Made by a program: the position numbers and the translations under genes
Part shown: one piece after another, positions 19,752-22,595 of the stretch
How the letters are laid out: every line of letters begins with the position of its first letter
Position numbering within the stretch: the first letter of the stretch is position 1
Notes under the pieces: generated by a model
Seen by the model: the letters and a program-made list of their open reading frames with translations, nothing else
Told to the model about the DNA's origin: nothing
Databases searched by the model: none
Assembly (NCBI GenBank): GCA_020060235.1
Contig: JAGVAO010000195.1
Location: 1-46,378 of the forward strand
Direction of reading: 5' to 3'
Length of the DNA stretch: 46,378 nt
Origin: Anaerolineales bacterium
GTDB lineage: Bacteria; Chloroflexota; Anaerolineae; Anaerolineales; Villigracilaceae

Positions 19752-20540
19752 GTGCCAGACTATAACGACTTAATCCTGATTTTGCAGGAACTCGACCTGG
19801 GCGACAAACCCGTTGTGGCCCACGCTTCGCTGCGCGCTTTCGGCCAGGTGTCGGGCGGGGCCGACGCCGTGGTGACGGCGCTCTTGTATGTTGCCCGCGT
19901 GCTGGTCATGCCGGTTCACACCTACAAAACGATGGTAACGCCCGCATCCGGCCCGGCCAACAACGCGGTCAATTATGCCCGCGCCCAGCAATGGAATCGC
20001 CTGGCCGAGCCGTTCGACCCGAACATGCCCGCCGATGTGATGATGGGCGTCATCCCTGAAAACCTGCGCCAGCGGCCACAGTCGAGGCGCTCGACGCACC
20101 CCATCCTGTCTTTTGCCGGGGTCAACGCCGACAAAATCCTGGCCGCCCAGACGCTCGAAAATCCGCTCGGCCCGCTGATGGAAGTTGCCAACGCCGACGG
20201 CTGGGCCTTGCTGCTGGGGGTCGACCATACCGCCAATACCGCCATCCACCTGGGCGAGAAACTCGCCAAGCGCAAGCAATTCACCCGCTGGGCGCTGACC
20301 GAGGCCGGAACAGTGGCCTGCCCCGGCTTCCCCGGCTGCTCGGCGGGGTTCGAGGCCCTCGAACCGGCGCTGCGTCCGCACACCCGCAGCGCCCAGGCCG
20401 GGGAGGCCCTCATCCGCGCTGTGCCAGTGCGCCAGGTGGTCGTCAAAACCATCGAAGCGATTAAACAAAATCCGCTCGCCCTGTTGTGCGAGCGGACGGA
20501 TTGTGAACGGTGTTCGGCGGTACGAGAGGGGTTGAGATAG
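19752..20540 (+). CDS. AAC(3)-fold acetyltransferase family protein
   Basis: The 262-residue protein belongs to the aminoglycoside 3-N-acetyltransferase (Antibiotic_NAT) family. Features are VVAHASLRAFGQVSGGADAV (21-40), LVMPVHTY (51-58), STHPILSFAG (114-123) and LLLGVDHTANTAIHLGE (153-169), containing conserved His residues. It ends with a Cys cluster (CERTDCERC). Many family members act on other amines, so aminoglycoside resistance should not be inferred. It starts with GTG 3 bp after the enoyl-CoA hydratase stop and has no clear Shine-Dalgarno, so translation is probably coupled. Confidence 0.88.
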   Translation: MPDYNDLILILQELDLGDKPVVAHASLRAFGQVSGGADAVVTALLYVARVLVMPVHTYKTMVTPASGPANNAVNYARAQQWNRLAEPFDPNMPADVMMGVIPENLRQRPQSRRSTHPILSFAGVNADKILAAQTLENPLGPLMEVANADGWALLLGVDHTANTAIHLGEKLAKRKQFTRWALTEAGTVACPGFPGCSAGFEALEPALRPHTRSAQAGEALIRAVPVRQVVVKTIEAIKQNPLALLCERTDCERCSAVREGLR

Positions 20541-20546
20541 GAAAAT

Positions 20547-20587
20547 GGCGACAGTCAGTTTCAAAAGGGCTGTCGCCTTAAAATTTT
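20547..20587. terminator. Terminator between the AAC(3)-fold gene and the convergent NYN gene
   Basis: GGCGACAG (20547-20554) and CTGTCGCC (20570-20577) pair perfectly around a 15-base loop, followed by TTAAAATTTT. A-rich sequence on the other side allows use on the minus strand as well. Confidence 0.75.
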
Positions 20588-20588
20588 C

Positions 20589-21206
20589 TCACCAATTATC
20601 AGGTCTCCTGAAACTACCTTGTGCATCATTCAATACAATCGGAAACTGACTGGCAGCCAAAACATTGGGGCGAATATGTTTAATGAATGTTGAATTTTCT
20701 GTCAGGGAACGGCTGGGGCGTTTGTTATGCGTAGGAGCAAGAACTCCAACCTTTTTGTTCAGATCGCGAATCACCATTTGGATAGGGCGCACAAGGTCTG
20801 AGTCATTGGAAATAACCACCGCACACTCATAAAGATTTCTGAATCCATCCATTAGCATTTGAGCCGCCAGATTGACATCAGAGCCTTTTTCTTGGGTATA
20901 AATCACGTCCGCATACCCTTTCCCATTTGCGAGCGGCATTTTTTTAACGTGGGACAGGAAACTACCTCTAATAATCGTTAGGTTGGGCAAAGTTTGCAAA
21001 GCACGCAAGTACGTTTGCTGGCGATTTTTTTTATTCAAGTCGTTTGGGCGCGCCTCTACCAATGCCGTGAAATAGTAAATATGCTGAATCCTATGCGCAG
21101 GCAGTAGTATTCGACAAAGTGCCGCAAAATCGAGCCACTTATGCGGCGTACCTTTGACCGCACCATAATAAAAATTAAAGCCGTCAATGTAAACGTTGGT
21201 GAGCAT
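20589..21206 (-). CDS. NYN-domain protein (PIN-like nuclease, LabA/DUF88 type)
   Basis: The 205-residue protein is a stand-alone NYN domain. Acidic residues expected at a PIN-like metal site are present: Asp8 in YIDGFNFYYGA, Asp110 in EKGSDVNLAAQML, and Asp135 and Asp137 in VISNDSDL. Such proteins are thought to cut RNA. The C-terminal 40 residues (NKRPSRSLTENSTFIKHI) match the usual DUF88 tail. The gene is more AT-rich than the surrounding core genes. It has its own promoter and a short structured leader that contains a terminator-like hairpin. Its neighbour at 21406 is a Schlafen/AlbA_2 protein. Confidence 0.92.
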   Translation of the reverse strand: MLTNVYIDGFNFYYGAVKGTPHKWLDFAALCRILLPAHRIQHIYYFTALVEARPNDLNKKNRQQTYLRALQTLPNLTIIRGSFLSHVKKMPLANGKGYADVIYTQEKGSDVNLAAQMLMDGFRNLYECAVVISNDSDLVRPIQMVIRDLNKKVGVLAPTHNKRPSRSLTENSTFIKHIRPNVLAASQFPIVLNDAQGSFRRPDNW

Positions 21207-21281
21207 TTCACTATCCTTATAAAAACAGAGACCGCCAAGAGGCGGTCTCGCGCCGGGTTCGCGAACTACTACCGGGGGGTT
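21207..21281 (-). ncRNA. Candidate structured leader RNA of the NYN gene with a terminator-like hairpin
   Basis: The leader runs about 75 nt from a strong promoter to the NYN start. It opens with a C-run and contains the palindrome GTTCGCGAAC, then a possible hairpin TCGCG-AACCCGG-CGCGA (plus strand 21248-21264). Next is a perfect 9-bp stem GAGACCGCC/GGCGGTCTC (21228-21249) with a four-base loop, followed by TGTTTTTA. The two stems share bases at 21248-21249, so they may be mutually exclusive. The last stem ends about 21 nt before the ATG. This layout resembles an attenuator or a cis-acting RNA target. Confidence 0.5.
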
Positions 21282-21287
21282 ACCTCT

Positions 21288-21316
21288 ATTATCGTCAATT
21301 TGAGTGCTGCTGTCAA
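21288..21316 (-). promoter_or_regulatory. Sigma-70-type promoter of the NYN gene
   Basis: On the minus strand TTGACA (21311-21316) and GATAAT (21288-21293) are spaced exactly 17 bp. Transcription would start near 21281. It lies behind the stop of the Schlafen-like gene, so the NYN gene can be expressed independently of dnaE and the Schlafen-like gene. Confidence 0.8.
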
Positions 21317-21405
21317 GAAAACATTTTTTCTATTTTGTAAGGTTTGTGGCAGACTTCCAACACTGAGGATATTGCGCCCCTCCGGAAGGACTTGTTTTTG
21401 ATTTT

Positions 21406-22584
21406 TCACTGAAACGGCCTATACCACTTGCCAGATTTGTCAAAACTCTCAGAGCCGGGAAACCCACCCGCATTCCACATTGCATCGAGCGCAGGCTTCA
21501 TAAGGTACGTCGGGTTATTATCATCTGGATAATTATCCAACATCACTTCTGGTATCAAGATAGTATCTCGGTCAAAGCAAGATGACGAGATGTTCCAATG
21601 AGATTGAGGAAGACCAAAAATCATACCCTTAACACCCAGCAGAGAAACAAAAATAATGGTTGGCGGTTGAATAACATTTACCTTTTGAAATATTAAGGAT
21701 GAAGCAACTGACTTAATGATTTCTTCCTCTGCCTTAAGACTTCTCAATGCTAACCCCCCAATGTCCGTGTATGACAATCTTGTGTACACAAATTCAATGC
21801 ACCCATTACGAAATATTTGATAGTATGTTTTTACTTGCTTCTCATCAGAAGATTCATAAAGCACAATTCCATCAATATTAAAACGACAATCAAATCTCTG
21901 CCCAAAGTATTGATTGTATGTTTTGCTGATTCCCGCAACATCGAACAAAAAAGAGGTCGAAAAAGAAACTACAGGAATAGCATGGACTACTAATTTTGCC
22001 TTCCCTTGCCCTAATGGCACAGGCGTTTCATCAGAACCTATACGAGCAATTCTCTCTAAACGAAAATCTCGAATTCTTTCCGCGACTGTCGCAGAAAATG
22101 AAAAAGCCTGGCGCAATTGTTGAACATCTAGCTGGTATTTGCCATTCGATTGCCTGGCATAAAACCTTGAAGCCCCTTGATATGTGACCATATGAGGAGA
22201 GTTGTAACTTTGTGGGATATGAATAATAAGAGCGAAATTACCATTTTGCAGTTGAAGTGGTTTTGTAGAACTTGTTAGTCGCGGCGCAATGCCTTCGCGA
22301 ATCATTTGCTCAAGGCGCAATATCTCACCATCCGGATCTATTCCATCCAATCCGGGCAGTTGAGTAGCAGTACCATTTTTTTCAACCATTCCATAAATCA
22401 GATAGCCTCCCCCTGTATTTGCAAAAGATGATACATCTGCAAGAAAATCTTTTTTGTCTTTATCCGAGTTCGTCGGCAATTTCAACTTGTAATCCAGCGT
22501 TTTTCGTTCTTCTGTTTTGTTGCTAATCAAAGCCAGAAGGTCATCTTCATCTATATCAGGGAGAGATTTGCCAAAGATTGTCAT
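21406..22584 (-). CDS. Schlafen-like AlbA_2-domain protein
   Basis: The 392-residue protein has an N-terminal AlbA_2 (Schlafen-type) domain at about 15-150: EERKTLDYKLKL, then KKDFLADVSSFANTGGGYLI and FYARQSNGKYQLD. Residues Glu25/Glu26, Asp31, Lys33 and Asp46/Asp50 lie where acidic and basic active-site residues of Schlafen RNases occur, but correspondence needs an alignment. The C-terminal 230 residues are unassigned. The gene is clearly AT-richer than dnaE, which ends only 11 bp upstream, so it was probably inserted behind dnaE and may rely on dnaE transcription. Known family members act in nucleic-acid processing and defence; the role here is open. Confidence 0.85.
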   Translation of the reverse strand: MTIFGKSLPDIDEDDLLALISNKTEERKTLDYKLKLPTNSDKDKKDFLADVSSFANTGGGYLIYGMVEKNGTATQLPGLDGIDPDGEILRLEQMIREGIAPRLTSSTKPLQLQNGNFALIIHIPQSYNSPHMVTYQGASRFYARQSNGKYQLDVQQLRQAFSFSATVAERIRDFRLERIARIGSDETPVPLGQGKAKLVVHAIPVVSFSTSFLFDVAGISKTYNQYFGQRFDCRFNIDGIVLYESSDEKQVKTYYQIFRNGCIEFVYTRLSYTDIGGLALRSLKAEEEIIKSVASSLIFQKVNVIQPPTIIFVSLLGVKGMIFGLPQSHWNISSSCFDRDTILIPEVMLDNYPDDNNPTYLMKPALDAMWNAGGFPGSESFDKSGKWYRPFQ

Positions 22585-22595
22585 CGTGAACCAAC

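Follow-up and report, generated by a model that had tools for sequence, protein, structure and literature searches.

A covarying two-hairpin RNA accompanies an NYN-domain nuclease gene in records of many bacterial phyla and is a candidate RNA antitoxin

In the type III layout described in PMC5086642, a promoter is followed by tandem RNA repeats, a terminator, and the toxin gene. In the AbiF/RCd22 system, as presented in PMC12373285, a conserved upstream RNA motif neutralises the toxin both in cis and in trans. Autoregulation is also reported there for RCd22, so it could coexist with an antitoxin role. DUF3800 has been found associated with putative non-coding RNAs (PMC10910872). In the part of the open literature that was covered, no report of an RNA antitoxin for an NYN protein was found. 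Here we describe a small structured RNA next to an NYN-domain nuclease gene in a 46,378-nucleotide stretch of DNA from an Anaerolineales bacterium (the window), together with its homologues in other genomes, plasmids and viruses.

The preliminary description of the window placed a promoter, two stems and a U-rich tail closely in front of the NYN gene, and all of these, including the 21-nt gap between the P2 hairpin and the NYN ATG (21206), were present on the minus strand where it had put them (Table 1). Because the end of the promoter -10 element sits 5 nt before the start of the covariance model of the RNA (R1), the RNA would start at or near the foot of the first hairpin. P1 was weak in the window copy, with a foot of only 4 bp, which counts against an antitoxin reading. 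Statistics on the single sequence were modest. Fold z-scores were -1.6 (82-nt leader) and -2.6 (63-nt RNA). A 22-nt palindrome of the P2 pattern with at most 3 mismatches occurred in 3 of 100 shuffled windows, an expectation of 0.03 per window. Five terminator-like sites were seen in 2.4 kb where 2.3 were expected, so that chance was only moderately excluded at this level. It is conservation and covariation in homologues, rather than single-sequence statistics, that exclude a chance origin of the leader structure.

Table 1. Positions of the RNA, its neighbouring signals and the nuclease gene in the window
Feature	Position	Strand	Basis
Promoter-like TTGACA-17-GATAAT	21316-21288	-	11/12 consensus matches
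Two-hairpin RNA, conserved, ~62 nt	21219..21282	-	full-length match to covariance model R1
Hairpin P1 (CCGG/CCGG foot, inner GUUCGCGAAC)	21253..21275	-	fold; covariation
GTTCGCGAAC	21266-21257	-	read from sequence
TCGCG/CGCGA stem	21264-21260 + 21252-21248	-	read from sequence
Hairpin P2, terminator-like, perfect 9-bp stem GAGACCGCC-TCTT-GGCGGTCTC	21249-21228	-	sequence, fold
UG then U-tract 3' of P2, tail TGTTTTTATA	21221..21227	-	sequence
AAGGA, possible ribosome-binding site of NYN gene	21214..21218	-	read from sequence
NYN-domain nuclease gene, 205 aa, proposed RNase partner	20589..21206	-	Pfam, PADLOC, predicted fold

NYN (PF01936) was the sole Pfam family matched by the protein (E 4.8e-9, 37.3 bits against a cut-off of 24.2), and residues 5-205 matched the PADLOC model HEC-09 (PDLC04163; E 2.1e-39). 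HEC presumably stands for 'Hma-embedded candidate'. Alignment of 61 homologues (alignment A4, from which five of 80 loci with a stop or frameshift in NYN were left out) showed that D8, N11, E106, D110, D135 and D137 were invariant, and the catalytic acids were intact. The AlphaFold2 model of the window protein had a pLDDT of 96.2. A fold search of the PDB with this model returned 2qip (Z 17.7, rmsd 2.7, 156 aligned) and the NYN domains of MARF1 (Z 16.0-16.9), which clearly outranked the next rows. Judged by the profile match, the PIN-like predicted fold and the conserved acids, the protein is an NYN-domain nuclease and is predicted to be a ribonuclease. The A4 profile matched no PDB chain at E ≤ 0.01, though the literature describes ToxN structures, and ToxN and other toxins of RNA antitoxins were absent among the fold-search matches listed, which is not proof of absence. 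HEC-09 is reported in PMC12447246 to correlate with phage susceptibility rather than resistance, which counts against an antitoxin reading.

A scan of genome contigs gave 280 NYN relatives, of which the best 80 were used. Comparison of the 110 nt 5' of NYN showed that most loci shared a frame, CCC-hairpin-GGG-NGC-GC-rich hairpin-UGC-U-tract, in which P1 had the CCC...GGG form with, often, a UUCG-type loop, and the second hairpin was GC-rich and variable in sequence. Conserved structure and compensatory changes had been named beforehand as the thing to look for in homologous leaders, and both were found. A MAFFT alignment of 31 leaders, not fitted to any structure, contained two helices with two-sided changes in 15 of 19 pairs. 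In this alignment 90.9% of cells were paired (98.7% in P2 and 81.9% in P1) compared with 75.0% after shuffling, and neither the pairing percentage nor the covariation score was reached by any of 500 shuffles; when partners were slid by 1-3 columns, pairing fell to 36-51%. Among 105 rows fitted to R1, an alignment that by its making leans towards the structure, double changes were found in 18 of 19 pairs, including 9 of 9 in P1, with 391 double-change cells against 115 in shuffles. In 96 of the 105 homologous RNAs the final 8 nt included at least four T. In one set of 56 loci, the records with a match to the module carried the names of 13 phyla, some of which may reflect binning errors. Three solitary RNAs from one genus (L159, L164 and L165) shared a variant that lacked the junction GC (GGGAAGAGGCC).

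The TCGCG/CGCGA stem overlaps P2, and the preliminary description had suggested that the two stems might switch. This did not hold up across the family. The 5-nt pairing between P1 and the junction was possible in 18 of 91 homologues, a slight excess over the 9.2 expected from shuffles, yet 73 of the 91 were unable to form it. Nor was a known RNA family recognised. At the gathering threshold, Rfam 15 gave no match in the window, and in 20 related loci gave only tRNA, tmRNA and one SAM_alpha, none overlapping the RNA. The best sub-threshold match of the window leader was Hrs13, with 20.1 bits against a gathering threshold of 52, and nothing above threshold was obtained on the RNA in E-value scans of L035 and of the leaders of the window and L209. 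On present sequence comparisons the two-hairpin RNA appears to be a new RNA family.

The RNA and the nuclease gene were closely linked. At E ≤ 1e-3, R1 matched 96 of 100 sources (the window and 99 NYN loci, 30 of the 100 containing a seed) and 66 of the 70 sources without a seed; those unmatched were L048, L065, L073 (no match) and L092 (E 0.0021). The window RNA, itself a seed row of R1, scored 48.3 bits (genome-wide E 1.0e-12) and was the only strong R1 copy in its genome, and the NYN module was likewise present in one copy. The next best match in that genome (C63, 23.6 bits) was considered as a second copy and proved to be an ordinary terminator-like palindrome beside other genes. NYN was present in 69 of 400 Chloroflexota genomes searched, and R1 was found at 118 places in 66 of the 400. 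Before the linkage count for these places, 17 NYN places were left out, each being either the second part of a split match or a match that was weak and distant. The RNA adjoined 64 of the 70 NYN genes that we labelled full-length and open (for 52 an RNA within 700 nt was in the genome listing, and switching the filters off added 12 at E ≤ 1e-4). With filters off, L183, L189 and L229-L231 had no detectable RNA, and L178 had only a weak match (14 bits, E 0.0045); together with the four unmatched sources, these copies count against an antitoxin reading. Since the RNA-less copies were mostly those with 34-38% identity (L183, at 46%, was an exception), the pairing holds in the close NYN family and fades in distant NYN proteins. 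Distances between RNAs were correlated with distances between NYN proteins across 56 loci (r 0.56), and also when only cross-phylum pairs were compared (r 0.42); in neither case was the value reached in 2000 permutations. No third recurrent gene partner was found among 465 open reading frames of 80 loci, in which the NYN cluster occurred in 75 loci and the next cluster in 4. In 3 of 20 loci (L041, L031 and L064) a tmRNA or tRNA gene lay about 600 nt or less upstream of NYN, as at integration sites.

In the window, about 2 kb (20541-22595) between an AAC-family gene and dnaE were taken up by the RNA-NYN module together with an SLFN/AlbA_2 gene. The AAC-family gene and dnaE were about 20 nt apart in a genome of the same genus (G439) and 93 nt apart in G430, while G425 had another insert of about 5.4 kb there, and on account of these differences the interval is a variable site. 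The SLFN/AlbA_2 gene was considered as a partner and rejected, as it was single in the genome and not recurrent beside NYN. The aminoglycoside 3-N-acetyltransferase-family gene at 19752-20540 had a match (E ≤ 1e-40) in 48 of the family's 61 genomes, and looks like a lineage core gene rather than an acquired resistance gene.

Two orientations of the RNA relative to NYN were found. Fourteen of the 96 R1-matched sources, belonging to Actinomycetota, Dehalococcoidia and related bins, had the RNA on the opposite strand just past the end of NYN, with its own 3' end facing the NYN stop codon, and the same order was found in the Mycobacterium prophage prophiGD43A-1 (L123) and in a Paenarthrobacter plasmid (L124). 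In the prophage, NYN and the convergent RNA (L123 3279-3899) were located between the integrase end and the immunity repressor. The RNA-NYN pairings in the 400 genomes comprised 74 with the RNA upstream on the same strand and two with it downstream on the opposite strand. A single copy had the RNA upstream and on the opposite strand (L188), and five loci had two tandem RNAs (L086, L104, L105, L106 and L107). A quick tree placed the downstream-opposite type at two positions, requiring three changes; the strongly supported branches are compatible with a single origin of this type, and more than one is not forced.

Promoter-like sites (9 or more of 12 matches) were sought no more than 10 nt from where the RNA begins, with shuffles for comparison. 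They were found for 39 of 89 RNAs of the upstream type (2.0 on average in shuffles, at most 6) and for 8 of 25 RNAs without NYN (mean 0.2, largest 2; the 25 were taken from 41 fetched places). For the downstream-opposite type only 2 of 15 had such a site (mean 0.06, largest 1), and this small number of full promoters is a point against an RNA antitoxin with its own promoter. Of the 12 -10-like hexamers in this group, 11 were located 2-9 nt before the RNA.

At 42 of the 118 places in the 400 genomes there was no listed NYN within 700 nt of the RNA. Forty-one of these places were fetched, one partial match being left out. Pieces of NYN remained at 10 of the 41, L162 and L216 being situated at contig ends, and in three more (L156, L168 and L149) a decayed NYN start could be read by eye. 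Both ends of NYN were kept and the middle was gone in L170, and in L163 and L166, where the start was read by eye. Orthologous sites showed that the RNA persisted after NYN had been lost. At one site in genus g55, RNA and NYN were both present in L087 and L089, and the RNA and flanks without NYN were present in L146, L158 and L161; at a second site NYN was found in L098 and L101 and the RNA only in L173, L217 and L221. Identity of the RNA at the first site was 90-92%, compared with 50-57% and 30-58% in the 100-nt upstream and downstream flanks. The contrast was weaker in a second genus (RNA 89-92%, flanks 66-82% and 33-84%) and in a third (RNA 98%, flanks 73% and 92%). Such outlasting of NYN would also be expected if the RNA had some other use or decayed more slowly. 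Sixteen of the 66 RNA-bearing genomes had a solitary RNA and no listed NYN. By eye, no other shared protein was seen beside strong NYN-less RNAs, save for synteny within genera. One strong NYN-less RNA (67 bits; L138 1501-1561) adjoined an open reading frame that appeared MazF-like by eye.

Relatives of NYN were found by tblastn in 440 of 72,556 plasmid records and in 3 of 50,697 phage records. Fourteen loci from plasmids or phages were examined with R1 under default filters, and 5 of them gave a match at E ≤ 1e-3. Seven plasmid loci from E. coli and Klebsiella contained four or five P1-like hairpins with a period of 29-33 nt (identified by TRF), followed by a terminator and NYN. With filters off, the last array copy and the terminator were matched in all seven (E 1.5e-8 to 2.5e-6), and this last copy contained a compensatory change, CCTGTGG/CCGCAGG to CCTACGG/CCGTAGG. 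The number of hairpin copies differed (four or five) between nearly identical E. coli and Klebsiella plasmids (L209-L213, L121 and L125). In a search of 5,426 E. coli genomes, 4 had one variant and 10 had another, in all cases plasmid-borne; the enterobacterial carrier plasmids were 3.4-4.6 kb in size. Viral contigs with NYN had the RNA at E ≤ 1e-6 in 8 of 14 cases. An IMG/VR viral contig (L195) encoded an NYN identical to that of a Nitrosospira bin (L008), with an RNA of 69 bits. Plasmids with distant NYN genes (L126, L131 and L133) had different hairpin-plus-terminator leaders, scoring 10-14 bits with R1, which perhaps represent further RNA families of the same layout. Four plasmid relatives (H44, H62, H76 and H81) were annotated as 6-hydroxy-3-succinoylpyridine hydroxylase (HspA/NicB) despite matching the NYN family, and this label may be misleading. 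Most RNA copies had a single P1, whereas type III antitoxins are defined by repeats, and this counts against an antitoxin reading.

Several explanations for these data were weighed. An autoregulatory leader, acting as an attenuator or RNase site in the NYN mRNA, which the enzyme would bind or cut to set its own level, was the reading of the preliminary description. It would account for the RNA being mostly directly upstream on the same strand, where its last hairpin, of terminator type, lies 2-281 nt ahead of NYN, and it could coexist with an antitoxin role, as for RCd22 (PMC12373285). A cis-regulatory leader would, however, always lie 5' of its gene on the same strand. In 14 of 96 sources, the prophage (L123) and the actinobacterial plasmid (L124) the RNA instead followed NYN on the other strand; it had no adjacent NYN at 42 of 118 places, and it was retained at orthologous sites without NYN. 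Because of these copies the RNA is not simply a cis leader, and we judge the autoregulatory reading unlikely. What survives of the earlier proposals is that the RNA is a partner of the enzyme, as this best fits a conserved, covarying RNA that accompanies NYN; the purely cis role does not survive. The partner RNA could also, instead of inhibiting a defence nuclease, be required by it as a cofactor, sensor or guide. Such an effector ribonucleoprotein would fit the tight linkage, the correlated divergence of RNA and NYN, the match to the defence candidate HEC-09 and the occurrence on plasmids and prophages. There was no variable guide-like stretch outside the stems, though, and a solitary RNA (16 of the 66 RNA-bearing genomes having no listed NYN) would have nothing to assist, so this too seems improbable.

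The hairpins could also be the recognition ends of a mobile element in whose movement NYN acts, with NYN-less RNAs as remnants of deletion; loci with both NYN ends and no middle (L170, L163 and L166), and the 2-kb segment carrying the window module that is missing from a genome of the same genus, are what would then be found. NYN belongs to a PIN-like class of nucleases and is not a known transposase, however, and there was no conserved second end, no recurrent neighbour, no fixed orientation of RNA to gene and only one copy in the window's own genome, all of which make this explanation very unlikely. The modest single-sequence statistics are what an ordinary intrinsic terminator and chance hairpins before a horizontally acquired gene would give. 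Covariation in both hairpins refutes this unless the alignments are wrong, and neither the P1 and GC-P2-UGC frame shared by 13 named phyla nor the complete two-hairpin copies on the opposite strand would be expected from it, so we give it hardly any weight.

The best explanation, which we consider probable, is that the NYN endoribonuclease is held in check by an RNA antitoxin. This is the simplest account because the RNA runs from promoter to terminator and could act in trans, has an RNase as companion, is repeated on plasmids, and outlives the RNase gene. The module would then have two parts, one a gene for a small structured RNA and the other an NYN-domain endoribonuclease. The RNA would be transcribed from its own promoter, beginning with P1 and finishing at the terminator-like P2, so that mostly the short RNA alone would be made, with occasional read-through giving the NYN mRNA. 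We infer these transcript ends, as well as binding of the RNA to the NYN protein and blocking of its activity, as proposed by analogy with the antitoxin RNAs of type III and AbiF/RCd22. P1 would be the binding unit, multiplied four to five times on the enterobacterial plasmids. If the RNA were exhausted, either because the element was lost or because a phage shut down transcription, NYN would be freed to cut RNA. It would thereby be toxic, and the module may serve in phage defence or in maintenance of the element that carries it.

More speculatively, RNA-controlled nuclease modules of the NYN/PIN-like class may be widespread and parallel to the HEPN-based AbiF modules, the presumed ancestors of Cas13. 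P1 might then be the handle by which the RNA docks in the enzyme, arrays might have arisen by multiplication of P1, and solitary P1-P2 RNAs might provide immunity against incoming NYN elements or be used by rival elements for silencing. We regard this wider picture as possible but doubtful. If the antitoxin reading is true, RNA antitoxins arose on a further, unrelated nuclease fold, one that is also found in animals (MARF1); HEC-09, an unexplained defence candidate, gains its missing RNA half; and solitary RNAs make it possible to ask whether hosts retain antidotes to elements they have lost. The module can be tested quickly, as it is small (about 0.8 kb), occurs in records of 13 phyla and is present on enterobacterial plasmids of 3.4-4.6 kb.

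Comparison with the described systems showed both likenesses and differences. The preliminary description had pointed to RNA motifs upstream of DUF3800 genes, and this is fair as an analogy, as structured RNAs there also lie beside a predicted nuclease gene. The two differ in protein fold, that of DUF3800 being described as RNase H-like (PMC10910872), and no Rfam match to such families was found in the window, the scanned loci or the leaders. The protein of the window matched the PADLOC model HEC-09 nearly end to end, but that model consists of a protein only, with no RNA. AbiF/RCd22 (RF03085) resembles the module in having a short structured RNA and terminator directly 5' of an RNase-type toxin gene, in hairpin units of 33-35 nt and in its occurrence in a prophage, in the account given in PMC12373285. 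It differs in that the AbiF protein belongs to the Abi_2/AbiD/F family (HEPN), linked to Cas13, whereas the protein here has an NYN/PIN-like fold and Pfam NYN as its only family, and here most copies have one P1 and some are arranged downstream on the opposite strand. The abiF RNA (RF03085) was not among the Rfam matches of the window, the scanned loci and the leaders. The ToxIN, CptIN and TenpIN systems are resembled by the seven enterobacterial plasmid loci, which have a promoter, four to five repeats of 29-33 nt in variable copy number, an intrinsic terminator and a nuclease gene, while the window has a single P1. As far as can be read from the sequence, a single promoter-like site and a terminator (P2, with T-tracts in 96 of 105 RNAs) appear to be present as in type III. 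The NYN protein has no sequence similarity to ToxN, and the A4 profile recovered no PDB chain at E ≤ 0.01; most copies are not arrays and some are convergent. A type III toxin is an endoribonuclease that processes its RNA and is blocked by binding it; of this, what is seen in the NYN protein is a nuclease fold with invariant acids. Because its protein differs, the module is not a member of ToxIN, CptIN, TenpIN or AbiF. It would instead put a known working principle on a new nuclease fold, with an RNA family that appears to be new and an alternative order of RNA and gene.
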